Position numbers and translations under genes: made by a program | Source: Stappia sp. TSB10P1A | GTDB taxonomy: Bacteria; Pseudomonadota; Alphaproteobacteria; Rhizobiales; Stappiaceae | Reading direction: 5' to 3' | Assembly: GCF_900185725.1 (NCBI RefSeq) | Contig: NZ_FYAU01000035.1 | Span: 1-64,000, forward strand | Length of the DNA: 64,000 nt | Part shown: one piece after another, positions 10,986-26,052 of the stretch | Layout: every line of letters begins with the position of its first letter | How positions within the stretch are numbered: position 1 is the first letter of the stretch | The notes under the pieces: model-generated | The model's input: only the letters and a program-made list of their open reading frames with translations | Databases searched by the model: none | What the model was told of the DNA's origin: nothing

Positions 10986-11076
10986 GGAGAGGTGGCCGAG
11001 TGGTCGAAGGCGCTCCCCTGCTAAGGGAGTAGGCGTCAAAAGCGTCTCGTGGGTTCGAATCCCATCCTCTCCGCCA
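10986..11076 (+). tRNA. tRNA-Ser (anticodon GCT)
   Basis: The acceptor stem GGAGAGG (10986-10992) pairs with CCTCTCC (11066-11072), followed by discriminator G and an encoded CCA (11074-11076). The anticodon stem CTCCC/GGGAG (11013-11017, 11025-11029) holds loop CTGCTAA with anticodon GCT at 11020-11022, reading AGC/AGT serine codons. The long variable arm (TAGGCGTCAAAAGCGTCTC region) is typical of serine tRNAs, and the T-loop GGTTCGAATCC is canonical. Confidence 0.98.
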
Positions 11077-11435
11077 TTCTTTCGCTCACGGCAGTCTCGC
11101 TTCGCTCGGCGCCTCCGCTGGGGCGGCCTTTCGGCCGGTCGCGCCGTTACGCTCCTGGCTCCGAGTTCGGACTTCGTCCTCTCTCTCCGTCATTGCCCGC
11201 CGCTTTCCCTCCATGATGCGATATCGCCGCCGATCGCTGCATCGCCGCCAGGCGATGCCGATTGCCGCCAACTCCACGCAGCCTGATAGACTTTGAAGAT
11301 CAGCGACACCAGCAAGCCGCATCCTTGTGGAAATGTGCAGGTGTCGCCGGACGGGGCTGCACCGAACTCCATTGCGTGACTGGCGTTGATGCATTGTGTT
11401 GGTAGCCCGGCCCAGCAGCAGGGATGGTAATCGAT
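11077..11435. other. Intergenic region after tRNA-Ser
   Basis: About 360 bp with nothing recognisable. There is no integrase fragment, and no second copy of the tRNA 3' end was seen that would mark an attachment site. Confidence 0.45.
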
Positions 11436-12284
11436 ATGCGCGTAGTCGAACATCAGGATATCAGGCTGGCGACGGAGGCCTTTGGCGATCCGAATGATCC
11501 GCCGGTGCTGCTGATCATGGGGGCCACCGCATCCATGCTTGGCTGGCCCGACGATTTTTGCGCCGCGCTGGCCGGGCGCGGTCTCTACGTGATCCGTTTC
11601 GATCATCGCGACACCGGGCAATCGACGACAGTCCCGCCGGGGGAGGCCACATATGCGGTGGAGGATCTGGCCGGCGATGCCGTGGCCGTTCTCGACGCCT
11701 ATGGGATCGACAAAGCGCATCTGGTCGGCATGTCGCTCGGCGGATACATCGCACAGATGCTGGCGGTCGCGCAGCCGGAGCGCGCGGCCTCGCTGATCCT
11801 GATCGCATCCGAGCCGCTCGGTTGGGACGGCGCGGAGTTGCCGCATATCTCGCAGGCATTTCTCGACCACTTCGGCACGCTTGGTTCGCTCGACTGGTCG
11901 GATCGCGGGGCTATGGCGGATTTCCTTGTCGAGAGCGAAAGACTGTGTGCGGGAACCGGAGCGCCCTTCGATGAGGATCGCGAAAGGATGCGTGTCGAGC
12001 GCGTGATGTCACGAACCGAGAGCCTGCCGAGCATGTTCAACCACGGCGCACTTGCCACCCGCGAGGACTGGACCGGGCGTTTTCGGGAGATCAGGTGCCC
12101 CGTTCTGGTCATTCACGGCGCCGAGGATCCGATCCTGCCCATCGAGAACGGGAGAGCCATTGTCGGCGGCATACCCGGCGCGTCGCTTACGGTTCTCGCC
12201 GGGACCGGCCATGAGATACCCGTTTCACGGATCCCCGATATTGCGGATCAGATCGCGGTTCACGTGCGAAGCTTGCAGGTCTGA
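11436..12284 (+). CDS. Alpha/beta hydrolase
   Basis: A 282-residue single-domain hydrolase. It reads PPVLLIMGATASMLGWPDDF (oxyanion region), then FDHRDTGQS, the nucleophile elbow GMSLGG (Ser about residue 100), the acid in HGAEDPILP, and GTGHEIP for the catalytic His. The DHRDTGQS pattern matches uncharacterised hydrolases related to aclacinomycin-methylesterase and haloperoxidase-type enzymes. The start at 11436 has AGGGA ten bases upstream; ATG 11424 is an alternative. It stands alone after tRNA-Ser, with a longer AT-richer flank than its neighbours. The substrate is unknown. Confidence 0.82.
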   Translation: MRVVEHQDIRLATEAFGDPNDPPVLLIMGATASMLGWPDDFCAALAGRGLYVIRFDHRDTGQSTTVPPGEATYAVEDLAGDAVAVLDAYGIDKAHLVGMSLGGYIAQMLAVAQPERAASLILIASEPLGWDGAELPHISQAFLDHFGTLGSLDWSDRGAMADFLVESERLCAGTGAPFDEDRERMRVERVMSRTESLPSMFNHGALATREDWTGRFREIRCPVLVIHGAEDPILPIENGRAIVGGIPGASLTVLAGTGHEIPVSRIPDIADQIAVHVRSLQV

Positions 12285-12469: not shown

Positions 12470-13234
12470 ATGTTCTCTCTGAGTGGCCGCAAGGCGCTGG
12501 TTGTCGGGATCGCCAACGATCAGTCGATAGCCTATGGCTGCGCGCAGGCGCTGAGGGCCCAGGGCGCGGACCTCGCCGTCACCTGGCTGAACGACAAGGC
12601 CGAGCGCTTCGTCCGCCCTCTCGCGGAGGACCTCGGGGCCGAGATCATGCTGCCGCTCGACGTGGCCCGGCCCGGCCAGCTCGAAGCGGTGTTCGGGACA
12701 ATCGCGGATCGCTGGGGACGGCTCGACACGCTGGTCCACTCCATCGCCTTCGCGCCCAAGGCGGATCTTCACGGCCGGGTGGTGGATTGTTCGGCCGAAG
12801 GCTTCGCCATGGCGATGGATGTGTCGGTCCATTCCTTCCTGCGCATGATCCGTTCGGCCGAACCGCTGATGACCGAGGGCGGCTGCTGCCTGTCGGTCAG
12901 CTTCTTCGGCTCCTCCCGCGTGGTGCGGCACTACAACATGATGGGCCCGGTGAAGGCCGCGCTGGAAAGCGCCGTCCGCTATGCCGCCGCCGAGCTGGGC
13001 GAAAAGGGCATCCGGGTGCATGCCCTGTCGCCGGGGCCGCTGAAGACCCGGGCGGCGAGCGGGATCGACCATTTCGACGAACTTCTGGCGGCCGCCTCCG
13101 AGCGCGCGCCGATCCATCACCTGGCGACGATCGAGGATGTGGGGGCCGTGGCGGCCTTCCTTGCCTCGCCCGAGGCCCGCAACCTGACCGGCGGTGTCCA
13201 CGACATCGACGGCGGCTTCTCGATCACGGCCTGA
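12470..13234 (+). CDS. FabI-like enoyl-ACP/CoA reductase paralogue
   Basis: A 254-residue SDR of the FabI type. It has the NAD region GIANDQSIAYGCAQAL, HSIAFAPK, and the catalytic pair Y155-x6-K162 in HYNMMGPVKAALE. The position equal to E. coli Tyr146 is Phe (F145 in SFFG), although that Tyr is usually conserved. The start at 12470 has GGAGG five bases upstream. It heads an operon with a DUF3141 protein, phosphotransacylase, acyl kinase and CoA-transferase. This suggests a dedicated role on short enoyl-CoA or enoyl-ACP rather than bulk fatty acid synthesis; that role is inferred from context. Confidence 0.85.
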   Translation: MFSLSGRKALVVGIANDQSIAYGCAQALRAQGADLAVTWLNDKAERFVRPLAEDLGAEIMLPLDVARPGQLEAVFGTIADRWGRLDTLVHSIAFAPKADLHGRVVDCSAEGFAMAMDVSVHSFLRMIRSAEPLMTEGGCCLSVSFFGSSRVVRHYNMMGPVKAALESAVRYAAAELGEKGIRVHALSPGPLKTRAASGIDHFDELLAAASERAPIHHLATIEDVGAVAAFLASPEARNLTGGVHDIDGGFSITA

Positions 13235-13244
13235 GGAGACCCCC

Positions 13245-15755
13245 ATGGCGAATGTCTTCGATCTGTTCGATCCCTTCCGCCAGTCGCAGGTTCTGCGCTC
13301 CAAGGGCGATCTCTTCTCCGCGATGCAGAAGACCATGACCGCCACCGACGGCGAGATCGATGCCGGTTCGGCCATCTTGACCGTCCTGACCACGGCCGCC
13401 TCGCGCCAGTCGGAGCGGATCGCCGATGGCCATTCGCGCCGGGCCGAAGCGGCGGTCGAGACCGCCCGCTCGCTGATGGACAAGCTGCAGGTCGCGCAGG
13501 CCGAGGGCAGGCTGCACACGGATTATGCAGAATACCTGCGCGATGCCTGGGAACGGACGATCCTGACCATGGACACGCTGCGCAAGCGCGGCGATATCTT
13601 TCTGGCGCATGAAGAGGCCGGCTGCCCGCCCGTGCTGATCTACGATTACGACGTGATCATGGATGGCCGGGACCTGCCTTATCCGTCGAACTACATGCTG
13701 CTGAAGATCCTGCCGCCCGACGGCGTCACGATCGACGACGCCCGGCGCCCCTATATCATCATCGACCCGCGGGCCGGCCACGGTCCGGGGATCGGCGGCT
13801 TCAAGGCCGACAGCCAGGTCGGGGTCGCCCTGCGGAAGGGGCATCCGGTCTATTTCGTCGCCTTCCGGCGGATGCCGGAGCCCGGGCAGTTCCTGTCCTA
13901 CGTCACCCGGTCGGAGGCCGCCTTCGTGCGCGAGGTGATGCGCCGCCATCCCAGGGCGTCGATGCCCGTGGTGACGGGCAATTGCCAGGGCGGCTGGGCG
14001 ACGCTGCTGCTGGCCGCCACCAATCCGGACCTGACCGGCCCCATCGTCATCAACGGCGCCCCCGTCGCGCCCTGGGCCGGCAAGGTGGGCGAGAGCCCGA
14101 TGCGCTACAATGCCGGCGTGCTGGGCGGCACCTGGATCCCGATGTTCCTGTCCGATCTCGGCGGCGGCATCTTCGACGGCGCGCATCTGGTGCAGAATTT
14201 CGAGCTTCTCAATCCGGCGCGCACGCTGTTCCGCAAGTATACCGACCTCTTCCGCGACATCGACAAGGGCGACGAGGCGTTCCTCGAATTCGAGAAATGG
14301 TGGGGCGGCTTCTTCCTGATGACGGAAGCCGAGATCAAGTGGATCGTCGAGCAACTGTTCGTCGGCAACCGGCTGGTCAAGAACGAGGCCCGCATCGAGC
14401 CGGGACGCCCGGTCGACCTGAAGGCGATCCGCGCGCCGATCATCGTCTTCGCCAGCCACGGCGACAACATCACCCCGCCGCAACAGGCGCTGAACTGGGT
14501 CGCCGAAACCTATGCCGATGTGAACGAGATCCGCATCCGCGGCCAGCGCATCGTCTACATGGTGCACGAACAGGTCGGGCATCTGGGCATCTTCGTCTCG
14601 TCGCAGATCGCCAAGAAGGAGCACACGGAGGTTGCCTCCACGCTCAAGACGATCGAGGCCCTGGCCCCCGGCCTCTACGAGATGACCATCGAGGACGTGA
14701 CCGAGAAGGACGGGCACACGCATTTCACCGTCGGCTTTGCGGAACGCACGCTCGACGACATCCGCGCGCTGGGCGACGGGCTGGACGACCAGCGCCCCTT
14801 TGCCGCCGTTGCCCGTGCCGCCGAGGTGCAGGCGCAGCTCTACGACGCGATCGTCCGGCCCGTGGTGCGCTCGCTGGTCACCGAGAGCGGGGCCGAGATG
14901 AGCCGCGCGCTGCATCCGATGCGCCTGACCCGCGCGCTCGCCTCCAGCAGCAACCCGGCGATGCAACCGGTCGAAGGCCTTGCCGCGAAGGTCAAGGCGG
15001 AGCGCCGCAAGGCCGCCGCCGGCAACCCCTTCCTCGCCGCCGAAGCCTTCTGGGTGCAGGGCACGGAGACCATGATCGACTTCCTGCGCGACAGTCGCGA
15101 CATGGGGTACGAATTGTATTTCCATTCGATCTGGGGCAGCCCCTGGGGCCGTGCCTTCGGCCGCACCCACGAGGCGCGCCGGACCCTGAAGAACCAGAAC
15201 GAGCTGCGCGGCTTGCCCGAGGTTGCCACTGCGCTGATGACCGTCGAACTGGGCGGCTTCTGCGAAGCGGTGATCCGCATGCTGGTGCTCATGGCCGAGA
15301 ACCGCCGCCAGGTCCGGCGCGACCGGCTGGAGCGCTCGGCGCATGTGCTGACCAGGGATGAACCTTTCCGCAGTCTGGGCGCGGAACGCCGCGCGATGAT
15401 CATCCATCAGCAGACGCTGATCGCCACGTTCGAGCCCGAGCGCGCGATCGAGACCCTGCCGCTGTTGCTGGGCGACAGGAACGAACGCGAACTGGCCATG
15501 CAGGCGGTGCAGTACATTGCCGGCGACACCGAGGAAATGTTGCCCACCACGGTGGTCCTGCTGCAGCGGTTCCGCGAGATACTGGGGCTGGATCCGCTGA
15601 TCGGCAACGTCTCGCGGGATCCGCTGTCGGCGCCCGCCGAGGTCCCTCCGACACTGGAGCCGGCAGCGATGCTCGAGACGGTGCCGCCGGCGGCCGGCGG
15701 CACGGCGAAACCCCGACGCGGCAAGCCCGTCTCCACTCCCGGTGGCGAGGGCTGA
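13245..15755 (+). CDS. DUF3141 protein, PHA-synthase-like alpha/beta hydrolase
   Basis: An 836-residue DUF3141 protein. The middle (about 120-460) is an alpha/beta hydrolase like class I-III PHA synthases. The nucleophile box is GNCQGG with Cys247, matching the PhaC G-x-C-x-G-G box; the likely acid is Asp407 (SHGDNITP) and the base His446 (GHLGIF). Such a Cys is expected for thioester chemistry on acyl-CoA. About 390 C-terminal residues have no familiar motif and end in a disordered Pro-rich tail. AGGAG lies six bases before 13245, and the fabI-like stop is ten bases upstream. It may be a polyester synthase or acyltransferase; the substrate is unproven. Confidence 0.85.
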   Translation: MANVFDLFDPFRQSQVLRSKGDLFSAMQKTMTATDGEIDAGSAILTVLTTAASRQSERIADGHSRRAEAAVETARSLMDKLQVAQAEGRLHTDYAEYLRDAWERTILTMDTLRKRGDIFLAHEEAGCPPVLIYDYDVIMDGRDLPYPSNYMLLKILPPDGVTIDDARRPYIIIDPRAGHGPGIGGFKADSQVGVALRKGHPVYFVAFRRMPEPGQFLSYVTRSEAAFVREVMRRHPRASMPVVTGNCQGGWATLLLAATNPDLTGPIVINGAPVAPWAGKVGESPMRYNAGVLGGTWIPMFLSDLGGGIFDGAHLVQNFELLNPARTLFRKYTDLFRDIDKGDEAFLEFEKWWGGFFLMTEAEIKWIVEQLFVGNRLVKNEARIEPGRPVDLKAIRAPIIVFASHGDNITPPQQALNWVAETYADVNEIRIRGQRIVYMVHEQVGHLGIFVSSQIAKKEHTEVASTLKTIEALAPGLYEMTIEDVTEKDGHTHFTVGFAERTLDDIRALGDGLDDQRPFAAVARAAEVQAQLYDAIVRPVVRSLVTESGAEMSRALHPMRLTRALASSSNPAMQPVEGLAAKVKAERRKAAAGNPFLAAEAFWVQGTETMIDFLRDSRDMGYELYFHSIWGSPWGRAFGRTHEARRTLKNQNELRGLPEVATALMTVELGGFCEAVIRMLVLMAENRRQVRRDRLERSAHVLTRDEPFRSLGAERRAMIIHQQTLIATFEPERAIETLPLLLGDRNERELAMQAVQYIAGDTEEMLPTTVVLLQRFREILGLDPLIGNVSRDPLSAPAEVPPTLEPAAMLETVPPAAGGTAKPRRGKPVSTPGGEG

Positions 15756-15756
15756 G

Positions 15757-17127
15757 ATGCGCATGACAAATCGCACCTTCGACGAAATGCAGCCCGGCGA
15801 CCGCGCCGAGCTGCGTCGTCTGATCACGGCCGACGATCTTTTCGTCTTCGCCGCCGCTTCGGGCAATTCCAACCCGATGCATCTGACGGACACCGATGTG
15901 GACGGCAACGGCACGGCCGAGCGCATCGCGCCGGGCATGTTCATGGCGTCGCTGATCTCCGCCGTTCTCGGCACGCAACTGCCGGGGCCGGGGACGCTCT
16001 ATCGCCGCCAGACCCTCGACTTCCACACCCGCGCCCATGCCGGAGAGGAAGTCATCGTGCGTGCCGAGGTGGTGTCCAAGGCCGAGGGCATGGTGCGGCT
16101 GAGGACCGAGGTCACCCATGCCGACGGCCGCCAGATCCTGACCGGCGAGGCCGAGGTCATCGCCCCGGTCGAGAAGTTCGACCGCGAGGATGTCGAGGTG
16201 CCGGGGCTGGTGGTCCAGCGCCATCGCCATTTCGAGGCGCTGCTCGAGCGCGCGCGGCCCTTGCCCGCGCTGCCGACCGCCGTGGTTTGCCCGAACGAGG
16301 CGAAATCGCTGGGCGGGGCGTTGCTCGCTGCCCGCGAGGGCGTCATTTCGCCCATTCTGATCGGCGAGGCCGAGGCGATCCGGCGCGCGGCCGACGAAAT
16401 CGGGGCCGATCTCGGCGGGATCGAGGTGATCGACGTGGCCGGCGATGCAGCCGCGGCCGAACTGGCCTGCAGGCTGGTCCATGACCACCGCGCGGCGGCC
16501 GTCATGAAGGGGCATCTGCATACCGACGATCTTCTGAAGCCGATGCTCGACAAGGCCCATGGCCTGCGGGTCGGGCGCCGGTTCACCCATGTCTTCGTGA
16601 TGGACGTGCCGGGCCATCCCGAACCGCTGTTCGTCACCGATGCGGCGATCAACATCGCGCCGGATCTCGCCACCAAGATGGACATCTGCCAGAACGCCAT
16701 CGACCTGGCGCTGTCCCTGGGGATGGAGCCGCGCGTCGGCGTGCTGTCGGCGGTCGAAACCGTCAACCCGGCCATCCAGTCGTCCATCGATGCGGCGCTG
16801 CTGTCGAAAATGGCCGACCGCGGCCAGATCAAGGGCGGTCAGGTCGAGGGGCCGCTGGCCATGGACAATGCGGTGGACATGGGGGCCGCGCGGACCAAGG
16901 GGCTGAAGGGCTCGGTCGCGGGGCGGGCCAATATCCTTGTCGTTCCGGGGCTCGATGCGGGGAACATGCTGGCCAAGCAACTGGCCTTCATCAGCCATGC
17001 CGAGGGGGCGGGACTGGTGCTGGGCGCCAAGGTGCCGGTGATCCTGAACAGCCGCTCCGACAGCCCGATGTCGCGCCTTGCCTCCTGTGCCGTGGCGGCG
17101 ATCCGCCATTTCGCGGGCGCCAGATGA
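15757..17127 (+). CDS. MaoC hydratase-phosphate acetyl/butyryltransferase fusion
   Basis: 456 residues in two domains. Residues about 5-140 are a MaoC/hot-dog (R)-enoyl-CoA hydratase. Residues about 155-456 are a phosphotransacetylase/phosphotransbutyrylase (PTA_PTB), interconverting acyl-CoA and acyl-phosphate. The hydratase motif reads SGNSNPMH where the family has SGDxNPxH, so the catalytic Asp is Asn37 while His42 remains; hydration activity is uncertain. The gene starts one base after the DUF3141 stop, with the ackA start overlapping its own stop. Pairing with an acyl kinase implies a reversible acyl-CoA to acyl-phosphate to ATP branch. Confidence 0.88.
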   Translation: MRMTNRTFDEMQPGDRAELRRLITADDLFVFAAASGNSNPMHLTDTDVDGNGTAERIAPGMFMASLISAVLGTQLPGPGTLYRRQTLDFHTRAHAGEEVIVRAEVVSKAEGMVRLRTEVTHADGRQILTGEAEVIAPVEKFDREDVEVPGLVVQRHRHFEALLERARPLPALPTAVVCPNEAKSLGGALLAAREGVISPILIGEAEAIRRAADEIGADLGGIEVIDVAGDAAAAELACRLVHDHRAAAVMKGHLHTDDLLKPMLDKAHGLRVGRRFTHVFVMDVPGHPEPLFVTDAAINIAPDLATKMDICQNAIDLALSLGMEPRVGVLSAVETVNPAIQSSIDAALLSKMADRGQIKGGQVEGPLAMDNAVDMGAARTKGLKGSVAGRANILVVPGLDAGNMLAKQLAFISHAEGAGLVLGAKVPVILNSRSDSPMSRLASCAVAAIRHFAGAR

Positions 17128-18302
17128 CCCGCGCGGTGCTGACGCTGAACGCCGGGTCGTCGTCGCTGAAGGTCGCGCTGTTCCCGCAAACCGGCGATGC
17201 GCCGGTGGCGACGGGCCTGGCCGACCGGATCGGGCCGCAGGCCCTGCTGCGCCTCACGGACGCGGACGGGGCCGAAATCCCGGCCGCCGCCGGGGATCTG
17301 ACCACCCATGCCGGCGCGATGGCCGCCGTCATCGACGCGTTCCGGGCGCGCTGGCCCGATCTTGAGCTGCTGGCCATCGGCCATCGCGTCGTGCATGGCG
17401 GCGCGGACCGGCAGGCTCCCGAACCGATCACCGAGGCCTTGCTCGGCGAGTTGGAGCGGCTGTCTCCCTTCGCCCCGCTGCACCAGCCGCACAATCTTGC
17501 CGGCATCCGCGCGGCGAGGGCGGCGTTTCCGGGGGTGCCGCAGGTGGCCTGTTTCGACACCGCCTTTCATCGCAGCCACCCTTTCGTCAACGACACGTTC
17601 GCGCTGCCGCGCGCGCTCTATGCCGAGGGCGTGCGGCGCTACGGGTTTCACGGTCTGTCCTACGACTATGTCGCCGGGGAGCTGGCCCGCACCGCGCCGC
17701 GCCTTGCCCAGGGCCGGGTGGTGGTGGCGCATCTGGGCAACGGCGCCAGCATGTGCGCGATCACCGACGGCCGTTCGGTCTCCTCGACCATGGGGTTCTC
17801 GGCGCTCGACGGCCTGCCGATGGGCACGCGCTGCGGGCAGCTCGACCCCGGCGTGCTGCTCTATCTCATGGACCAGAAGGGCATGACGGCCGGCGAGATC
17901 TCCGACCTTCTCTACAGGCAGTCGGGCCTTCTCGGCCTGTCCGGCCTGTCGAACGACATGCGCACGCTCGAGGCCGCCGGCACGCCCGAGGCGGCCGAGG
18001 CCATCGACTATTTCACCTTTCGCTGCCAGCGCGAGGTGGGGGCGATGGCCGCTGCCCTAGGCGGCATCGATGCGCTGGTGTTCTGCGGCGGCATCGGCGA
18101 GAACTCGTGCCTGATCCGCGCCAGGATCTGCGAACGGCTGGGCTGGATGGGGATCGAGATCGATCCCGCGAGGAACGCGAAGCATGCGCGGGTGATCTCT
18201 TCCGATCTCGCCCGCACGACCGTGATGGTCATTCCGACAAACGAGGAACTGGTGATCGCCCGTGCCGCCCGCGCGGCCCTGGGCGCGATGGAGGCCGTAT
18301 GA
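17124..18302 (+). CDS. ackA: Acetate/propionate/butyrate family kinase
   Basis: A 392-residue acetokinase-family enzyme that transfers phosphate between acyl-phosphate and ADP. The motifs are complete: LNAGSSSLKVALF at the N-terminus, GHRVVHGG, CFDTAFHRSHP, RYGFHGLSYDYV, HLGNGASMCAI, GTRCGQLDPG and GGIGENS. It overlaps the phosphotransacylase gene by ATGA at both ends of the pair, so the enzymes should be made in step. Size and motifs fit AckA better than Buk, but the operon (FabI-like, DUF3141, CoA-transferase) suggests the true substrate could be a C4 acyl-phosphate. Confidence 0.9.
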   Translation: MTRAVLTLNAGSSSLKVALFPQTGDAPVATGLADRIGPQALLRLTDADGAEIPAAAGDLTTHAGAMAAVIDAFRARWPDLELLAIGHRVVHGGADRQAPEPITEALLGELERLSPFAPLHQPHNLAGIRAARAAFPGVPQVACFDTAFHRSHPFVNDTFALPRALYAEGVRRYGFHGLSYDYVAGELARTAPRLAQGRVVVAHLGNGASMCAITDGRSVSSTMGFSALDGLPMGTRCGQLDPGVLLYLMDQKGMTAGEISDLLYRQSGLLGLSGLSNDMRTLEAAGTPEAAEAIDYFTFRCQREVGAMAAALGGIDALVFCGGIGENSCLIRARICERLGWMGIEIDPARNAKHARVISSDLARTTVMVIPTNEELVIARAARAALGAMEAV

Positions 18303-18952
18303 AAGGTGCGTTGAGACCCGAGGCCGCGGCGGAGATGATCCCCGAGGGCGCCAGCCTGCTGATCGGCGGCTTCATGGCCGTCGGTTCGCCCGAGCGGATG
18401 ATCGATGCCCTGGTGGCACGGGGCGTCGGCGGGTTGACGGTGATCGCCAACGACACGGCGATGCCCGGCAAGGGCGTCGGCAAGCTGATCTCGGCCGGCC
18501 TCGTCCGGCATGTGATCGCCAGCCACATCGGCCTCAATCCCGAGACGCAAGCCAAGATGATCGCCGGCGAGATCACCTGCGAACTGGTGCCGCAGGGCAC
18601 GCTGGTCGAGCGCATCCGCGCCGGCGGCATGGGGCTCGGCGGGGTGCTGACGCCGACCGGCCTTGCCACCGAAGTGGAGACCGGCAAGCAGATCGTCACC
18701 GTCGAGGGCAACCGCTATCTGGTGGAAACGCCGCTGAAGGCCGACTTCGCGCTGATCGGCGCCTGGCAGGCGGATTATGTCGGCAACCTCAGCTATCTGC
18801 TCACGGCGCAGAATTTCAACCCGGTCATGGCGCTGTCGGGGCGCACGGTCATCGCCGAGGCGGAAAGCATCGTGCCGGTGGGGGTGATCCCGCCCGACGC
18901 GGTCAAGACGCCGGGCGTCCTGGTCGATCACCTGCTGATCCGCGCGGCCTGA
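18299..18952 (+). CDS. 3-oxoacid CoA-transferase subunit A
   Basis: A 217-residue alpha subunit of a two-subunit class I CoA-transferase (AtoD/ScoA/PcaI type). It has the glycine-rich GASLLIGGFMAVGSPERMIDAL near the N-terminus, GLNPETQAKM, and GTLVERIRAGGMGLGGVLTPTG. It moves CoA between carboxylic acids through the glutamyl-CoA formed on subunit B. It overlaps ackA by ATGA, with subunit B ten bases downstream. Acetoacetate/acetate or butyrate specificity is likely from context but cannot be fixed from sequence. Confidence 0.9.
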   Translation: MKGALRPEAAAEMIPEGASLLIGGFMAVGSPERMIDALVARGVGGLTVIANDTAMPGKGVGKLISAGLVRHVIASHIGLNPETQAKMIAGEITCELVPQGTLVERIRAGGMGLGGVLTPTGLATEVETGKQIVTVEGNRYLVETPLKADFALIGAWQADYVGNLSYLLTAQNFNPVMALSGRTVIAEAESIVPVGVIPPDAVKTPGVLVDHLLIRAA

Positions 18953-18962
18953 GGAGGGGAAC

Positions 18963-19616
18963 ATGGACGCCAAGGAATTCATCGCCCGCCGGGTGGCGCG
19001 GGAAATCAGGCCGGGCTCGCTCGTGAACCTCGGCATCGGCCTGCCGTCGATGGTGGCGAATTTCGTGCCCGCCGATCTTGGGGTGTTCTTCCAGGCCGAA
19101 AACGGCGTGATCGGTCTCGGCGCCCGTCCGCCGGAGGGGATGGAGGACCGCCACCTGACCGATGCGGGCGGCGGCTTCGTGACCGCCGTGCCGGGAGCGG
19201 CGAGCATCGACAGCGCCATGAGCTTCGGCCTGATCCGGGGCGGGCACCTGGACATGACGGTGCTGGGGGGACTGCAGGTCGACGAAGCCGGGCATCTGGC
19301 GAACTGGAAGGTGCCGGGCAAGATGGTGCCGGGCATGGGCGGGGCGATGGATCTGGTCACCGGGGCGGCCCGCGTGATCGTCGCCATGCAGCACAGCGCC
19401 AAGGGCCAGTCGAAGATCGTGCCGCGCTGCACCCTGCCGCTGACCGCGCAGCGCCGGGTCGACCTGGTGGTGACGGACCTTGCGGTCATCGAACCGACGG
19501 CGGCCGGTCTGGTCTTGCGCGAACGCGCGCCCGGCGTCACTGTCGACGACATTCGCGCCGCGACCGAGGCCGCATTGGTGATCCCCGACGACGTTCCCGA
19601 AGTGATCCTCGCCTGA
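18963..19616 (+). CDS. 3-oxoacid CoA-transferase subunit B
   Basis: A 217-residue beta subunit (AtoA/ScoB/PcaJ type). It carries the nucleophilic glutamate, Glu46 in FFQAENGVIGLG, and the GGLQVDEAGHLANWKVPGKM block that closes the CoA site. AGGGGA lies just before ATG 18963. It completes the heterodimer with the preceding gene. In this operon it would link 3-oxo or short-chain acids to the CoA pool feeding the FabI/DUF3141/phosphotransacylase enzymes. Confidence 0.9.
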   Translation: MDAKEFIARRVAREIRPGSLVNLGIGLPSMVANFVPADLGVFFQAENGVIGLGARPPEGMEDRHLTDAGGGFVTAVPGAASIDSAMSFGLIRGGHLDMTVLGGLQVDEAGHLANWKVPGKMVPGMGGAMDLVTGAARVIVAMQHSAKGQSKIVPRCTLPLTAQRRVDLVVTDLAVIEPTAAGLVLRERAPGVTVDDIRAATEAALVIPDDVPEVILA

Positions 19617-19785
19617 GGACGTCCCGGCCCCGAGCGATCCCTCGCGCGGCGCCTGCGTTGCCGCCCACGAGGCGCGACACCAGACCGGCAGGGACTTGCC
19701 GGCTGCAACAACCGCCGATGCGGACCGGAGCCGATGCGGAGCGGGGACGGGCTGCACGGGGGAGGGGACTGCCCAGGGGAGGGGA

Positions 19786-20640
19786 ATGCACAGGTTCAAG
19801 GCCGGGGACGGCACCATTCTGGCGTATCGCGACACGGGTCGGGGCCTGCCCCTGCTGGCCCTGGCCGGCCTGACGCGCGACGGCCGCGACTTCGACTATC
19901 TCGCGCGACATCTGCCCGAGGACGTGCGCCTGATCCGGCTCGACAGCCGCGGCCGCGGCGGTTCGGGCTGGGCCGATCCCGCCACCTATACCGTGGCGCA
20001 GGAGGCGGGCGATGCCGTCGCCCTGCTGGACCATCTCGGCATCGACCGGGCGGCGATCCTCGGCTCGTCGCGGGGCGGGCTTCTGGGGCTGGTGATCGCC
20101 GCGACCCAGCCCTCGCGCGTGCTCGGGCTCTGCCTCAACGATGTCGGGCCGGTGGTCGAACGCGACGGGTTGCAGCGGATCGGCACCTATATCGGCATCG
20201 AGCCGGCGGTGGCCGATCTGGACGAGGTCGCCGACCGCATGCCGGCGGCGATGCCGGGCTTTCACGGGGTGCCGCCGATGCGCTGGGCCGAGGAAGCCAT
20301 CCGCCACTATGTCCAGCTCGACGGTCGGCTCGGCCTGCCCTACGACCCCGCCCTGCGCCTCGCCTTCGAGACCGCGATGGCCGCGCCGCTGCCCGAACTG
20401 TGGACGCTGTTCGACGCCTGCCAGGGGCTGCCGCTGGCGCTGATCCGCGGCGAGGCCTCGGATGTGCTGGCGCGCGCCACCGCGCAGGAGATGCGCCGCC
20501 GCCGCCCCGACATGATCTTCGCCGAAATCCCGGATCGCGGGCATATCCCGTTCCTGGACGAGCCCGAGGCCCTGCGCGCGATCGAGGACTGGCTGGCCGC
20601 CGTGGGACAGGCCTGCGCTGCCGAACGGGCGGCCGGATGA
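19786..20640 (+). CDS. Alpha/beta hydrolase of the acyl module
   Basis: A 284-residue hydrolase with DTGRGLPLLALAGLTRDGRDF (oxyanion region), RLDSRGRGGSGW, nucleophile elbow GSSRGG (Ser95), and DRGHIPF for the catalytic His. The start at 19786 follows a strong GGGGAGGGG. It lies 169 bp after the CoA-transferase on the same strand, so it is probably the last member of the operon or a separate unit beside it. A thioesterase or short-polyester hydrolase role would complement the DUF3141 protein, but that is inference from position. Confidence 0.75.
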   Translation: MHRFKAGDGTILAYRDTGRGLPLLALAGLTRDGRDFDYLARHLPEDVRLIRLDSRGRGGSGWADPATYTVAQEAGDAVALLDHLGIDRAAILGSSRGGLLGLVIAATQPSRVLGLCLNDVGPVVERDGLQRIGTYIGIEPAVADLDEVADRMPAAMPGFHGVPPMRWAEEAIRHYVQLDGRLGLPYDPALRLAFETAMAAPLPELWTLFDACQGLPLALIRGEASDVLARATAQEMRRRRPDMIFAEIPDRGHIPFLDEPEALRAIEDWLAAVGQACAAERAAG

Positions 20641-20649
20641 TCGTCGCGC

Positions 20650-22017
20650 TCAGCGTTCGAACGCCACCTCGAAGACCATGCCCGTCTCGTCGGAGAAGCA
20701 GCGGGCCGTTCCGTCATGGGCGCGGGCCACGTCGTTGACGATCGCAAGGCCGAGGCCGCAGCCGCGCGAGTGGTCCTCGTCGATGCGGAAGAAGCGGTCG
20801 AACACCCGCTGCCGCAGCTCCGGCGGAATGCCGGGGCCGTCGTCGGCAAAGCGGATCCGCACCGAGTGCGGCTCGAAGTCGATCGAGACCTGCAGCCGTC
20901 CTTGCGGGCGCAGCGCGTATTTGTCGGCATTGTCCAGCAGGTTGACCGTCATCTCCTCGACAAGCACGGGGTCGCAGTCGACCGGGCGGGCCTCGCCGGT
21001 GACGACGAAAGAGACGTCCACGTCGCGCCGCAACTGCGTCTCGGCGAAAGGCAGGACCTTGTTGCGGATCAGGTCGACGAGATCGACCTTTTGGATGAGC
21101 GTCTTGAGACTGCGGCCGCGCACCCGTTCAAGCGACAGCAACTGCGAGGTCAGCCGGCTGGTGGCCCGCGCGGTGGCGGCCAGATCCTTGACGCGGGCGC
21201 GCAGTTCCGCCTCGGTCGGGGCGCTGATCGCCGCCTCGGCCTGGACCTGGATCGCCGCCACGGGATTGCGCATCTGGTGCGCGGCATCCGAAATGAAGCC
21301 GTCGCGCAGGGCGAAGGCCTGCGACAGGCGGTCGAACAGCGAGTTCGCGGTCTCGACGAGCGGGCGCAGTTCCGGCGGAACCCAGCGGCGGATCGGGCGC
21401 AGGTCGTCCGGCGTTCTCTCGCCGATCGCGTGACGCAGATCGAGGAGCGGCTTCAGCCCGATCTGGATGCCGAACCACAGGATCACCGCGGCCGTCAGGA
21501 TGATCGAGCCGACGACCATGACCGATTGCGAGACCAGCGAGCGCGACAGGGCCTCGCGCTGGCGCACCGTCTGCCAGACCTCCACGGTCACCCAGCCGCC
21601 GAACTGCGGCTCGCTGATGAACTCGCGCAGCATCACGGCCCGCACCGGCTGGCCGAGCGACTCGCTGTCGAAGAACAGCGGCGCCCCGCCGTCGACGAGC
21701 GCGCCGGCCGGCTTGTCGGGCGGGTCGGAATAGCCGGTGACGAAGCTGCCGCCGGGCCCGCTGACGCGGTAGTAGACCGGATCGCCGAGGGCGGTGGTCA
21801 GTTCGTCCAGCAGCCGTTCGGTCAGCACGTCGCCTTCGGAGATCACCACGTCGCGCGAGATCGTCAGCGCCACCGCCAGCAGGGTGTTGTCGTAGAGCTC
21901 CTGCGACAGGCGCGTCGCCAACTGGTAGCGGGCGAGGGACGCGGCGGCGGCGACGAAGACCAGCGGCAGGATGAGAAGCAGGAACAGCCGCCCCCGCAGC
22001 GAAAGACGCTGAAACAT
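20650..22017 (-). CDS. tctE: TctE-type sensor histidine kinase
   Basis: A 455-residue inner-membrane kinase. It has TM segments about 10-28 and 165-187 with a periplasmic sensor loop between (2CSK_N-type). The HisKA phosphoacceptor is H247 (SDAAHQMRNP), and the ATPase motifs NLLDNADKY, DDGPGIP and GCGLGLAIV are present. It overlaps the response regulator stop by ATGA on the same strand and stands opposite tctC, matching the Salmonella tctDE/tctCBA arrangement. It should sense external tricarboxylates and activate the transporter. Confidence 0.9.
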   Translation of the reverse strand: MFQRLSLRGRLFLLLILPLVFVAAAASLARYQLATRLSQELYDNTLLAVALTISRDVVISEGDVLTERLLDELTTALGDPVYYRVSGPGGSFVTGYSDPPDKPAGALVDGGAPLFFDSESLGQPVRAVMLREFISEPQFGGWVTVEVWQTVRQREALSRSLVSQSVMVVGSIILTAAVILWFGIQIGLKPLLDLRHAIGERTPDDLRPIRRWVPPELRPLVETANSLFDRLSQAFALRDGFISDAAHQMRNPVAAIQVQAEAAISAPTEAELRARVKDLAATARATSRLTSQLLSLERVRGRSLKTLIQKVDLVDLIRNKVLPFAETQLRRDVDVSFVVTGEARPVDCDPVLVEEMTVNLLDNADKYALRPQGRLQVSIDFEPHSVRIRFADDGPGIPPELRQRVFDRFFRIDEDHSRGCGLGLAIVNDVARAHDGTARCFSDETGMVFEVAFER

Positions 22018-22691
22018 CAGCCCTCGTCCAGCATGTAGCCGAGGCCGCGCGCGGTCCGGATCACGACGCCCGAGCCGTCGATCTTCCGGCGCAGCCGCGA
22101 GACCAGAAGCTCGACCGCGTTCGGATCGACCGGGGCGCCGGTGCCGTAGAGCGCATCGGCGATCCGGTCCTTCTCGATCAGCCGGCCGCGCTTGTCGAGC
22201 AGCAGCTCGAACAGCGCCAGCTCGCGCCGGGGCAGGTCGAGGCTCTGTCCGATCAGCGACACGATGCGCTTCTGGCGGTCATAGACCAGTTGGCCGATCA
22301 CCTCCTGCGCCGGGGCGACCTGGGGGCGGCGGCGGGACAGGGCGCGCAGGCGCGCGATCAGTTCCTCCATGTCGAAGGGCTTGACCAGATAGTCGTCGGC
22401 GCCCGCGTCGAGCCCCTGCACCCGTTCGGAGGTCTTGCCGCGCGCGGTCAGGATCAGCACCGGCGTCGTGTCGCCGCGGGCGCGCAGCCGGCGGATGATG
22501 TCGATTCCCGACAGGCGCGGCAGGTTGAGGTCGATGATCGCCACGTCGGTGGTCTGTCTGGCCAGCGTCGACAGGAAGGCGTCGGCATCCAGCCCGTCGT
22601 CGATATGGTCGACGGCATGCCCTTGATCCTTCAAGGCATTTGTTATTCCCTTGGCGAGGTCGAGATTATCCTCGATCAAGATCACGCGCAT
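22017..22691 (-). CDS. tctD: TctD-type response regulator (OmpR family)
   Basis: 224 residues. The receiver has acidic E7/D8, phospho-acceptor D54 (IIDLNLP) and K104 (YLVKPFD); a winged-helix Trans_reg_C DNA-binding domain follows (about 130-222, LPRRELALFELLLDKRG...RGLGYMLDE). The start at 22691 gives the classical MRVILIEDN beginning. It is divergent from tctC across 154 bp and forms an operon with the kinase. It most likely activates the tctC promoter in that gap. Confidence 0.92.
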   Translation of the reverse strand: MRVILIEDNLDLAKGITNALKDQGHAVDHIDDGLDADAFLSTLARQTTDVAIIDLNLPRLSGIDIIRRLRARGDTTPVLILTARGKTSERVQGLDAGADDYLVKPFDMEELIARLRALSRRRPQVAPAQEVIGQLVYDRQKRIVSLIGQSLDLPRRELALFELLLDKRGRLIEKDRIADALYGTGAPVDPNAVELLVSRLRRKIDGSGVVIRTARGLGYMLDEG

Positions 22692-22845
22692 GAAACGCCT
22701 TTTTGCGAGCACGACAGGTTGCGGACAGGAACCGCGCCTAGTTTCCGCGATCAGGCCGCGCTTGGGAGGAGAAATCAAGCGCGGTTTCGCACAATACTGC
22801 CCGAAGGGGCAGGGGGGTGTGCTACTGTCTCTACGGGAGGACGAC
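22692..22845. promoter_or_regulatory. tctD/tctC divergent promoter region
   Basis: A 154-bp gap between divergent genes, the expected TctD binding region. The tctC leader holds a small perfect hairpin, CTGCCC (22797-22802), loop GAAG, GGGCAG (22807-22812), followed by a G-rich tract and GGGAGG (22835-22840), the tctC ribosome site. CGCGGTTTC and GGAACCGCG form partial inverted copies at 22732-22789 that could be operator halves. No firm -35/-10 was assigned. Confidence 0.4.
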
Positions 22846-23949
22846 ATGACAATGAAACTCACTATCACGCGGCGCGTGGCGCTCGGGCTTGCCGCCGGCG
22901 CAATGACTTTCGCTCTGGCCGGACCGGCCACGGCCGAAGTCAGCTTTGCCGGCAAGACCATCGAATGGATCATCCCGTTCTCGGCCGGCGGCGGCTCGGA
23001 CACCTGGGCGCGGTTCAACGCCCCGCTGCTGTCCAAGTATCTGCCGGGCAACCCGACCGTGGTCGTCGTGAACGAGTCCGGCGGCGGCTCGACCAAGGGC
23101 ACCAACCTGTTCGCGGCGCGGGCGAAGCCCGATGGGCTGATGATCCTCGGCACCTCCGGTTCGACGCAGTTCCCCTATCTCCTGGGCGATCCGCGCGTGC
23201 GCTATGAGTACAAGGACTGGCGGATCGCGATGGCCGGCCCCACCGGCGGTGTCGTCTACACGACGCCGAAGCTGGGCCTGAAGGGGCCGGAAGACATCGC
23301 CATGCTCAAGGACAAGGAGCTGGTCTATGCCAGCCAGGGCGCGACTTCGCTCGACCTTGTGCCGCTGCTCGGCTTCCGCCTGATGGACTTCAAGGTGCAG
23401 CACGTCTTCGGCTTCAAGGGGCGCGGCGACGGCCGTCTGGCCTTCGAGCGGGGCGAGGTCAACATCGACTATCAGACCTCGTCGGCCTATCTCAAGAACG
23501 TGCAGCCGCTGGTCGATGCCGGCGAGGCGGTGCCGCTGTTTAGCTGGGGCGTGCTCGACGAGGCCGGCAACGTGGTCCGCGATCCGACCTTCCCCGACCT
23601 GCCGTCCTTCGTCGAAGCCTATGAGATGCTGACCGGCGTCGCGCCGTCGAGCCCCGAATATGCGGCCTATTTCGCCTTCTTCACCGCCGGCTTCCCGGCG
23701 CAGAAGATGGTGTTCCTGCCGAAGGGCACGTCGGACGAGATCGTCGCGGCCTATCAGAAGGCCTTCGAGGACATGAAGGCCGATCCGGACTACCAGGCCA
23801 ATGCCGAAGCGGTGCTCGGCACCTATGGGCAGGTCACCGGCGCGCTGGCCCAGGCGCTGTTCGAAAAGGGCACCACCATCGCGCCGGAAGTGCGCGCCCA
23901 GGTGGCGGACATGCTGAGCAGCGAATACGGCGTCAAGCTCGGCGAGTGA
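22846..23949 (+). CDS. tctC: TctC tricarboxylate-binding periplasmic protein
   Basis: A 367-residue TTT-family solute-binding protein (Bug/TctC). The signal peptide has a Tat-like ITRRVALGLAAGAM and ends near ATAEVSF. The mature part starts FAGKTIEWIIPFSAGGGSDTWAR, with the family motif PFxxGGGxDxxAR. GGGAGG lies five bases before ATG 22846. It feeds the TctA-TctB membrane protein encoded 108 bp downstream, beyond a GC hairpin. Citrate, tricarballylate or aconitate are probable ligands, given the catabolic genes that follow. Confidence 0.9.
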   Translation: MTMKLTITRRVALGLAAGAMTFALAGPATAEVSFAGKTIEWIIPFSAGGGSDTWARFNAPLLSKYLPGNPTVVVVNESGGGSTKGTNLFAARAKPDGLMILGTSGSTQFPYLLGDPRVRYEYKDWRIAMAGPTGGVVYTTPKLGLKGPEDIAMLKDKELVYASQGATSLDLVPLLGFRLMDFKVQHVFGFKGRGDGRLAFERGEVNIDYQTSSAYLKNVQPLVDAGEAVPLFSWGVLDEAGNVVRDPTFPDLPSFVEAYEMLTGVAPSSPEYAAYFAFFTAGFPAQKMVFLPKGTSDEIVAAYQKAFEDMKADPDYQANAEAVLGTYGQVTGALAQALFEKGTTIAPEVRAQVADMLSSEYGVKLGE

Positions 23950-23972
23950 TCCCACTCCTTCCGACCAGACGG

Positions 23973-23996
23973 GGCGGGCCCTGACAGGGGCCCGCC
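23973..23996 (+). terminator. Hairpin between tctC and tctA
   Basis: Perfect 9-bp arms GGCGGGCCC (23973-23981) and GGGCCCGCC (23988-23996) around a 6-nt loop, followed by a pyrimidine stretch without a full T-run. It is probably an attenuator or 3' stabiliser that lets the binding protein be made in excess over the permease. Confidence 0.65.
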
Positions 23997-24057
23997 TCCT
24001 CCCTTCGCCGAAGGGTGGCCTTGTTGCGACTGCCCGGCAAACACGGAAGCGCTCACC

Positions 24058-26052
24058 GTGATCGACACCCTCTTGTCCGCGCTCGGAACGCTGCTGTCGT
24101 TCCAGCATCTCTTCTACATGCTGATTGGCGTATCGGTCGGGCTGCTGGTCGGTGTCATTCCCGGCCTCGGCGGCATCGCCGGCCTGTCGCTGCTCATTCC
24201 CTTTCTCTACGGAATGAACGAGATTTCCGCGCTGGCGATGCTGATCGGCCTCGTCGCCGTGATCCCGACCTCCGACACGTTCGCCTCCGTGCTGATGGGC
24301 ATTCCGGGATCCTCGGCCAGTCAGGCGACGGTGCTGGACGGCTTTCCGCTTGCCCGCAAGGGGCAGGCGGCGCGGGCGCTGTCGGCGGCCTTCATCTCGT
24401 CGATGGCGGGCGGCATCTTCGGCGCCATCATCCTGACCGGCTTCGTCGTCATCGCCCGGCCGCTGATCCTGTCCTTCGGTTCGGCGGAACTGTTCATGCT
24501 GGCGCTGTTCGGCCTGTCCATGGTCGCGGTGCTGGCCGGGCGGAGCCTTGCCAAGGGGCTGGCCGCCTGCTGCATCGGCCTGGTTATCGGGTCGATCGGC
24601 GGGGCGCCCGCCACCGGCGAGTTCCGGATGATCTTCGGCTTCGACTATCTCTATGACGGCATCCCGCTGGTGATCGTCGGCCTCGGCTTCTTCGCCGTCC
24701 CGGAGATCGCCGACCTGCTGCGCCGGAATTCGGCCATCGCCTCGGGCAATGCGCTGGGCTCGGGGTGGTTCCAGGGCCTGCGCGACTGGTGGGCGAATGT
24801 CTGGCTGTCGATGCGCTGTTCCGGCTTCGGCTGCATCATCGGCTCGATTCCGGGCCTTGGCGGGTCCGTGGTGGACTGGATCGCCTATGGCCATGCGGTG
24901 CAGACGGTCAAGAAGGATCCGCATTTCGGCCAGGGCGACATCCGCGGCGTCATCGCGCCGGAAAGCTCCAACAACGCGATGCAGGGCGGTGCGCTGCTGC
25001 CGACCATGCTGTTCGGCATCCCCGGCTCCGGGTCGATGGCGGTGTTTCTCGGCGGCATGGTGCTGCTGGGCATCCAGCCCGGCCCGTCGATGGTGGGCGC
25101 CGACCTCGACATCACCTATTCGGTGATCTGGTCGCTGGCTCTCGCCAATGTCATGGGCGCCGGCATCTGCCTGGCGCTGGCGATCCCGATTTCCAAGCTG
25201 ACCCAGGTGCCGTTCCAGCGGCTGGCGCCTTTCATGATCGTGCTGATCTGCTTCGCCGCGTTCCAGGCGACGCGCTCGCTGGCCGATCTGGTGGCGCTGC
25301 TGGCGCTTGGCGTGCTGGGCGTGCTGATGAAGCGTTTCGGCTGGCCGCGTCCGGCCTTGCTGATCGGCTATGTGCTGGCGCCGCAGGCCGAGACCTATCT
25401 CTACCAGGCGCTGCAGTTCTACGGCTGGGACTTCGTCTTCCGGCCCGGCGTCATCGTCATCGCCCTGATGACGCTGGCCTCGATCTGGTTCGGCCTGCGC
25501 AACCGGGTGGACGAGCATGGCCACGTGGTGCCGAACGCGGACGATGCGCCGGACGTGCCGTCCTTCAAGGCGCATCTGCCGCAGATCGGCTTTGCCGCGG
25601 CGATGGCGGTGCTGCTGGTGGTGGCCCTGACGGATGCGCTGAAGCACGGGTTCCTGGCGCAGGTCTTCCCGCTGTCGGTGTCGCTGGTCGGCCTGACGAT
25701 GCTGGTGATCCTGATCCCGCAACTGGCGCGCGGCAAGACGGGGCATCATTCGCATTTCGATGCCGAACTGACCGGCGAGCATGTCGGCCAGGAGGGGGTT
25801 GGCAATCTGTGGGGCGGGCTGGTATGGATCGCCGGTCTCGTCGCCCTGACGGCGCTGATCGGCTTCTACGCGGCCATGCTGGTCTTCTTCCCGATCTTCC
25901 TGACGGTCCGTGCCAAGGCTGGTCCGGTCATGACCGGGTTGATGACCGCCGGTGTCGCCGGAGCGATCCTGCTGCTGGCCTGGGCCTTGGCCCTCAACTT
26001 CCCTTCGGGCGTGCTGCAGGATGCCGTGGACCTGCCCTGGCCCTTCCGCTGA
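24058..26052 (+). CDS. tctA: TctA-TctB fused tricarboxylate permease
   Basis: A 664-residue membrane protein. Residues 1-505 are TctA, with many TM helices and the repeated glycine motif GVIPGLGGIAG (about 32) and GSIPGLGGSVVDW (about 262). After a hydrophilic linker (about 485-510), residues about 515-664 add four TM helices typical of the small subunit TctB. The two permease subunits of a tripartite tricarboxylate transporter are thus one chain, and no separate tctB exists nearby. The start is GTG at 24058. It is cotranscribed with tctC across a hairpin. Confidence 0.9.
   Translation: MIDTLLSALGTLLSFQHLFYMLIGVSVGLLVGVIPGLGGIAGLSLLIPFLYGMNEISALAMLIGLVAVIPTSDTFASVLMGIPGSSASQATVLDGFPLARKGQAARALSAAFISSMAGGIFGAIILTGFVVIARPLILSFGSAELFMLALFGLSMVAVLAGRSLAKGLAACCIGLVIGSIGGAPATGEFRMIFGFDYLYDGIPLVIVGLGFFAVPEIADLLRRNSAIASGNALGSGWFQGLRDWWANVWLSMRCSGFGCIIGSIPGLGGSVVDWIAYGHAVQTVKKDPHFGQGDIRGVIAPESSNNAMQGGALLPTMLFGIPGSGSMAVFLGGMVLLGIQPGPSMVGADLDITYSVIWSLALANVMGAGICLALAIPISKLTQVPFQRLAPFMIVLICFAAFQATRSLADLVALLALGVLGVLMKRFGWPRPALLIGYVLAPQAETYLYQALQFYGWDFVFRPGVIVIALMTLASIWFGLRNRVDEHGHVVPNADDAPDVPSFKAHLPQIGFAAAMAVLLVVALTDALKHGFLAQVFPLSVSLVGLTMLVILIPQLARGKTGHHSHFDAELTGEHVGQEGVGNLWGGLVWIAGLVALTALIGFYAAMLVFFPIFLTVRAKAGPVMTGLMTAGVAGAILLLAWALALNFPSGVLQDAVDLPWPFR

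Follow-up and report, generated by a model that had tools for sequence, protein, structure and literature searches.

We describe here an operon of Stappia sp. TSB10P1A, found in a 64,000-nt stretch of contig NZ_FYAU01000035.1 (the window, i.e. the whole stretch of DNA that was analysed), in which a protein of the DUF3141 family is encoded together with a FabI-like enoyl reductase, a phosphotransacylase (PTA) fused to a MaoC domain, an AckA-type kinase (ACK) and the two subunits (CtfA and CtfB) of a coenzyme A (CoA) transferase. The DUF3141 protein is predicted, from profiles and a structure model, to be a distant relative of the polyhydroxyalkanoate (PHA) synthase PhaC; its triad residues are conserved, and its linkage to these enzymes recurs in other bacteria. 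We tentatively propose, as a reading that is possible but short of probable, that the set would form a module leading from storage polymer to acid, allowing the anaerobic use of stored hydroxybutyrate with formation of acid and ATP. The passages returned by a search of open-licence PMC papers held no description of this operon, nor of what is added here, namely the recurrence of the module, a DUF3141 that looks accessory to PhaC, the change at the MaoC site and the signals in the extra regions of DUF3141.

Six plus-strand genes are packed within positions 12470–19616, with every gap or overlap at 14 bp or less (in order, a 10-bp gap, a 14-bp overlap, two ATGA overlaps and a 10-bp gap; the 14-bp overlap, between DUF3141 and MaoC-PTA, assumes a GTG start, and an alternative ATG 1 bp past the stop is possible). 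The tight coupling described in the original prediction thus holds for these six; the alpha/beta hydrolase placed with them is more loosely attached, 169 bp away from CoA-transferase B, and had no NCBIfam model listed over its cut-off. Gene positions, the six enzyme identities and the numbering of the triad (C247, D407, H446) were all recovered with the open reading frame (ORF) coordinates and family models. DUF3141 matches PF11339 with E 2.3e-224 (746.8 bits against a gathering cut-off of 29.7), the FabI-like protein NF005717 (425.8 bits, cut-off 337), the fusion NF006045 (604.8, cut-off 282), the kinase PF00871 (E 2.2e-113) and TIGR00016 (362.2, cut-off 293.4), and the transferase subunits TIGR02429 (A, 206.9, cut-off 128.5; for PRK09920, 268, under its 315) and TIGR02428 (B, 295.2, cut-off 243.55). 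Because all six enzymes are far over a family model and their linkage recurs in other loci, the operon is above chance.

DUF3141 is a full member of its family, although the PF11339 match spans only residues 100–650 of 836 and stops before a possible TerB-like part, leaving the last ~180 residues outside. In an alignment of 80 rows (the window and 79 loci, with L077 omitted for its N letters), C247 (GNCQGG), D407 (HGDNITPP) and H446 (GHLGIF) are invariant (80/80), as are Asn246, Gln248, Trp251 and Arg176/Gly178/Gly182. A smaller alignment, window row included, again keeps C247 in 16/16, so that the conservation of this cysteine across homologues, on which the original prediction hinged together with that of the neighbourhood, is confirmed. 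By score the protein is not a PhaC: the NCBIfam class III model TIGR01836 gives E 4.7e-11 (42.3 of 365.3 bits) and the PhaC class model TIGR01838 19.2 of 622.65 bits, both below cut-off. When its profile is aligned by hhalign with the class I PhaC of the same genome (probability 86.6, E 4.5e-6, 234 columns), C247 and D407 fall on the Cys and Asp of PhaC, respectively, and the aligned stretch stops before H446.

The AlphaFold2 model built from the 80-row alignment has a mean predicted local distance difference test score (pLDDT) of 89.1 and a predicted template modelling score (pTM) of 0.86, with residues 449–452, beside H446, below 50. In a Foldseek search with this model, ranks 1–13 were all PhaC chains (best E 9.2e-9, full-length A. 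caviae PhaC), and the PhaC catalytic-domain chains 5xav, 5hz2, 6k3c and 5t6o (rank 15) gave TMt 0.56–0.60 at 14–15% identity. A sequence search for a solved relative returned none below E 0.1. On the Foldseek ranks, the profile alignment of Cys and Asp and the sub-threshold TIGR01836 match, we consider DUF3141 to be a distant PhaC relative that shares with PhaC a Cys alpha/beta-hydrolase core. It differs in falling far below every PhaC cut-off, in having its own signature around DPRAGHGxGIGG, and in carrying long N-terminal helices and a C-terminal helical region of ~300 residues. The likeness is real, yet already in print. In the passages seen of a 2024 classification, PF11339 is grouped with PHA synthases and given a C-D-H triad (PMC11878206), so the earlier statement that no function was known for DUF3141 does not stand. 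Elsewhere, again in passages, a DUF3141 gene is reported in the stretch after phaCAB (PMC8601165) and a DUF3141 protein is entered as a polyhydroxybutyrate (PHB) depolymerase (PMC8050969); none of the literature passages searched contained experiments on the family.

Neighbourhoods were compared in the best 80 of 565 confirmed DUF3141 loci, which lean to close relatives; flanks reached up to 10 kb, some shortened by contig ends, all counts apply to these flanks, and matches below 40% identity or not above 45% coverage were dropped. FabI was found near DUF3141 in 39 of the 80 loci, ACK in 37, PTA in 36 and the MaoC part in 28, the CoA-transferase pair being the least common of the enzymes (CtfA and CtfB, 14 each); an alpha/beta hydrolase adjoined DUF3141 in six. 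FabI, PTA or ACK lay in the flanks of 49 loci, and all three in 26, which bears out the expectation of a conserved neighbourhood for this part of the sample. About ten gene orders were seen. That of the window is FabI>DUF>PTA>ACK, and others are PTA>ACK>FabI>DUF (L071, L095), PTA>ACK>DUF (L052, L077, L087), FabI>PTA>ACK>DUF (L056), DUF>FabI>PTA>ACK (L057), PTA>ACK>DUF>FabI (L109) and DUF>PTA>ACK>FabI (L110), along with mixed-strand arrangements (ACK>DUF>FabI with PTA opposite in L060, divergent in L083 and L088, convergent in L076); several of these loci are metagenome bins. Reassembly in so many orders points to function and not to shared descent alone, and the partners probably work together. 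Similar linkage is present in plasmid records of Thiodictyon (with phosphate-uptake genes nearby), S. meliloti pSymA, Azospirillum and Rhodobacter, and DUF3141 accompanies PTA in Paraburkholderia and FabI in Methylorubrum. Downstream of the pSymA copy there are CBS, adhP and phosphoketolase genes, which we take as a hint only. Other widespread neighbours were also looked for. Within the 60 largest ORF clusters from these loci, any that matched FabI, PTA and ACK in size looked, from their coordinates, to be shadows of those genes. Of the 137 candidate flanking ORFs, 98 were scanned with Pfam, which gave, among the families listed (25 of 37), ABC transporter 7 times, SDR 5, 3-hydroxyacyl-CoA dehydrogenase 3 and phasin 2.

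The association was also visible at the level of whole genomes. In a class sample of 385 genomes, where DUF3141 was counted at E<1e-100 (18/385; over the cut-off, 31/385), a PTA-type match lies on the same strand within 1.3 kb downstream of DUF3141 in 12 of the 18 genomes, eight of these matches beginning near profile position 139–157 and so without the MaoC part. An over-cut-off PTA-type match occurs anywhere in 16/18 DUF3141 genomes vs 46/367 others (62/385 overall; Fisher p 4e-12), and a class I PhaC over cut-off in 17/18, this genome included, vs 206/367 (223/385 overall; Fisher p 9e-4); these p values ignore kinship, and G361 and G219 were counted as over the cut-off from their E-values. 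Within the genus, 10 of 14 genomes carry DUF3141 at E<1e-100. Since an ordinary PhaC is present in 17 of the 18, beside DUF3141 and not replaced by it, DUF3141 seems to be a PhaC relative in an accessory role rather than the main synthase.

This bears directly on the idea of a new synthase, which the original prediction had put forward alongside that of an acyltransferase. DUF3141 would then be a second synthase that builds up polymer: the operon would take up or recycle short acids, either through acyl-phosphate to acyl-CoA or by CoA transfer, and the acyl groups would go into storage. The PhaC-like fold and triad, the presence of a CoA-transferase and the reversibility of PTA/ACK, which is general knowledge, all speak for it. 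With the usual synthase already in place, a FabI-type reductase that would use up enoyl-CoA, the precursor of hydroxyacyl-CoA, and the low identity to the PhaC catalytic-domain structures, we regard it as rather unlikely and no longer the simplest reading.

The genome itself has one DUF3141 at E<1e-100 besides the class I PhaC, and two further FabI-like copies (45% and 41% identity to the operon FabI); contig C27 carries another MaoC-PTA/ACK pair (86447–89286, L140; 49% and 52% identity), in which the MaoC motif is lost altogether. Given these other copies, the window operon looks like a dedicated set and not like housekeeping copies. Beside the C27 pair there is a convergent phasin-like gene (24.3 bits, or 25.5 with neighbours, for a cut-off of 24.9), and a phasin with PTA-ACK was also seen in four congeners of 12 scanned, those with a phasin match, which were inspected for it. 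A pyruvate phosphate dikinase-like ORF, judged by eye, lies upstream of the same pair.

Turning to the partner enzymes, the FabI-like protein keeps Y155/K162 (Y-x6-K) in 40/40 aligned rows. The transacylase scores 282.7 of 410.5 bits with the phosphotransbutyrylase model TIGR02706, below cut-off and far above its match to the pta model TIGR00651 (57.9). As in the PTA-ACK and PTB-BUK acid-forming pathways, transacylase and kinase are adjacent; here, differently, a PTB-like transacylase is fused to MaoC, paired with an Ack-type kinase, and linked to DUF3141 and FabI. Both known pathways yield ATP, and PTA/ACK is reversible. Given a hydratase, the gene set can take hydroxybutyryl-CoA to butyrate and acetate with ATP, following the chemistry of crotonate and butyrate fermentation and of PTA/ACK.

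The polymer-to-acid route that we tentatively favour would run as follows. DUF3141 would be an accessory PhaC-family enzyme on or near PHA granules, its Cys247-His446-Asp407 passing hydroxybutyryl groups between polymer and CoA; PHB is suggested as the natural source because a PhaC relative is at the centre of the set. The most likely output would be (R)-3-hydroxybutyryl-CoA, released when the cell is short of an electron acceptor. Part of it would be dehydrated to crotonyl-CoA, in the window strain probably by a separate MaoC hydratase (canonical MaoC domains are found elsewhere in the same genome; L134, L136). The FabI-like enzyme would then reduce the crotonyl-CoA to butyryl-CoA, from which transacylase and kinase would form butyrate and ATP through the acyl-phosphate. 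The remainder would undergo oxidation to acetoacetyl-CoA and acetyl-CoA, any free acetoacetate being dealt with by the CoA-transferase. Overall, stored polymer would be dismutated to acetate and butyrate, much as in the known crotonate fermentations.

Several observations weigh against this route. The first concerns the hydratase. In GDxNPxH, which we take to be the catalytic motif of R-specific enoyl-CoA hydratase (MaoC/PhaJ), the window MaoC part reads GNSNPMH, with Asn for the catalytic Asp. The complete motifs claimed by the original prediction thus do not extend to the MaoC domain. Among 38 rows (36 loci, the window and the unlinked C27 copy), 25 have Asn for Asp, seven of them also without the His; Asp and His are both intact in eight (L057, L060, L065, L069, L071, L077, L087 and L095), and the remaining five are degenerate, absent or unreadable. 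Because of this replacement the hydratase step of the window operon appears doubtful, and a hydratase is not the constant part of the module. (The name of NF006045, bifunctional enoyl-CoA hydratase/phosphate acetyltransferase, is by the same 25 rows doubtful for many of its members.) In the second place, the kinase is nearer acetate kinase than butyrate kinase (55.3 bits with the butyrate kinase model). With a PTB-like transacylase and an AckA-like kinase the chain length of the acid is not fixed, and the C4-type acyl groups of the original prediction, favoured by the former enzyme and not by the latter, are plausible. Thirdly, 31/80 loci have none of FabI, PTA or ACK and ten have FabI alone, and the DUF3141 genes of R. 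etli p42d and B. ottawaense plasmids, like those of Acidiphilium and B. vietnamiensis, stand without annotated PTA, ACK or FabI. On the structural side, full-length PhaC chains superpose poorly (TMt 0.38–0.46, root-mean-square deviation 18–23), which indicates, as far as the model goes, a different domain arrangement in DUF3141; other alpha/beta-hydrolases match from E ~1e-6 and 562 structures in total at E<=0.001, so that the fold alone says just alpha/beta-hydrolase. Phasin neighbours occur in only 2/80 loci, and the direction of flux, which sequence cannot tell, is our inference.

Oxygen control gives no help either. No FNR/FixK-like box was found near the window operon; such boxes lie within 300 bp upstream of DUF3141 in 4/80 loci (~0.9 expected from locus density, three of the four being one near-identical site) and within 1.6 kb in 5/80 (4.7 expected), counts that leave low-oxygen control through such a box unsupported. 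A hint in favour, no more, comes from the low-oxygen-activated (lxa) locus of B. cenocepacia (BCAM0275-0323), in which M0296 is given, in the passages seen, as an acetoacetyl-CoA reductase and M0298 as a phosphate acetyl/butyryl transferase (PMC6127331). The locus differs from the operon in its size, 50 genes, and in its six universal stress proteins.

The regions that DUF3141 adds to the hydrolase core were analysed separately, with 74 of 76 N-terminal and 72 of 80 C-terminal pieces aligned. The N-terminus is modelled as two long helices (residues 19–86 and 90–124). Scanned singly, 10/74 homologous N-termini matched Phasin_2 (PF09361) at E<=1 (best 1.1e-4), 44/74 matched DUF3141 itself and every other family was found in 3/74 or fewer; lone N-termini match unrelated families equally well or better (STING_LBD, 5.6e-5), and that of the window protein has no Phasin_2 match. 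A phasin-like N-terminus is thus suggestive. A profile comparison with 19 phasins (hhalign E 0.015, probability 3%; C-terminal control, E 0.3, probability 0.2%) was too weak to prove the relation. The C-terminal 301 residues, modelled alone, gave a mean pLDDT of 91.6 and a pTM of 0.62. Foldseek ranks 1–4 were all chains of 2h5n, which we take to be TerB-like (TMt 0.60–0.65, at E 0.14–0.34); Pfam TerB was matched by 1/72 C-terminal pieces and three unrelated families by 2/72 each. The last part of the region perhaps has a TerB-like fold, the signal being weak. A short DUF3141 of 597 aa, without the C-terminal part, is encoded on plasmid p1 of Paracoccus aerodenitrificans (L117), among genes for a metallo-hydrolase, thymidine phosphorylase, phosphoribosyl pyrophosphate kinase and a copper ATPase, in what looks like a stress cluster.

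These helical additions at both ends, with the weak phasin-like signal, would also fit a DUF3141 with little or no catalysis of its own, which regulates PhaC on the granule or serves it there as a scaffold, PTA, ACK and FabI tuning acetyl-CoA and acetyl-phosphate during storage. There is a parallel in Bradyrhizobium, where PhaC paralogues are proposed, in the passages seen, not to be active synthases and to lower synthase activity (PMC10888616). Cys, Asp and His kept in all 80 rows would be unusual for a dead enzyme, and we give this explanation a low probability. The same low probability goes to the most far-reaching form of the polymer-to-acid proposal, in which DUF3141 would be a separate PhaC-family class, bound to the granule by its phasin-like N-terminus and carrying out thiolysis of PHA to hydroxyacyl-CoA, instead of hydrolysis, to feed an ATP-yielding fermentation (FabI, PTA, kinase and CoA-transferase) by which aerobes survive without oxygen. 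Ordinary lipid making or remodelling, with FabI acyl chains, PTA/ACK acyl phosphates and a DUF3141 acyltransferase or thioesterase unrelated to PHA, accords with the FabI models, by which the first enzyme is called an enoyl-ACP reductase, but is very improbable in view of the two other FabI-like copies, a transacylase of the phosphotransbutyrylase/PTA kind, and the pointers to PHA given by co-occurrence with PhaC across genomes and by the occasional phasin neighbour.

As a further hint of a link to PHA, the operons of L066 and L073 have phasin genes next to them, as does DUF3141 in L188 and in S. americanum L113. In L188 (G385:C16), a congener's second DUF3141, the order on one strand is phasin, DUF3141, ACK, PTA and FabI.

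PHA storage and spells of low oxygen are common to many bacteria of soil, sea and root nodules, and to our knowledge it is not settled by what means the polymer could keep such cells alive when they cannot respire. If the polymer-to-acid reading is true, a conserved pairing of a PhaC relative with substrate-level phosphorylation would provide a testable answer. It would also give a function to the DUF3141 family, for which none was shown in the literature passages found, and possibly an enzyme for recovering hydroxyacyl-CoA from bioplastic.

Coordinates of the operon and of the DUF3141 regions discussed (window positions)
Feature	Position	Strand	Basis
FabI-like (PRK07533 type) enoyl reductase, proposed enoyl-CoA/crotonyl-CoA reductase	12470..13234	+	NF005717
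DUF3141 protein, PhaC-like Cys-Asp-His alpha/beta-hydrolase core with N- and C-terminal helical regions	13245..15755	+	PF11339
DUF3141 N-terminal helical region, residues 1-124, perhaps phasin-like	13245..13616	+	model helices
C247 codon, proposed nucleophile	13983..13985	+	alignment
DUF3141 C-terminal helical region, residues 503-803, last part perhaps TerB-like	14751..15653	+	AlphaFold2 model
MaoC-phosphotransacylase (PTA) fusion, MaoC without catalytic Asp	15742..17127	+	NF006045
Acetate/propionate-family (AckA-type) kinase	17124..18302	+	PF00871, TIGR00016
3-oxoacid CoA-transferase subunit A (AtoD-like)	18299..18952	+	TIGR02429
3-oxoacid CoA-transferase subunit B	18963..19616	+	TIGR02428
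Alpha/beta hydrolase, loosely attached	19786..20640	+	ORF 169 bp downstream

The window DUF3141 is 70–79% identical to Rhodobacterales copies vs 41–59% to the congeners' copies compared, and this greater nearness to the former suggests that the gene was gained horizontally. DUF3141 proteins 69–72% identical to that of the window also appear in metagenome bins labelled Comamonadaceae, Burkholderiaceae and Ottowia (L035, L036, L039), through transfer or binning error. A tRNA-Ser lies at 10986–11076, and the left flank (6500 to the tRNA) is collinear, at ~72–87%, in several congeners; within the genus, 20650–24500 finds scattered short matches only. Synteny seems to break after the tRNA-Ser, so that the operon may belong to the accessory part of the genome. 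The idea of an island flanked by a tRNA repeat was set aside, as the 3' end of the tRNA has no second copy within the window. The intervening upstream alpha/beta hydrolase (11424–12284) has macrolide-esterase-like models as its nearest, below cut-off (321 of 420 bits). Downstream (20650–23949), we recognised by eye a minus-strand sensor kinase and response regulator followed by a plus-strand solute-binding-protein-like ORF, for which a Pfam scan was empty at 1e-5.

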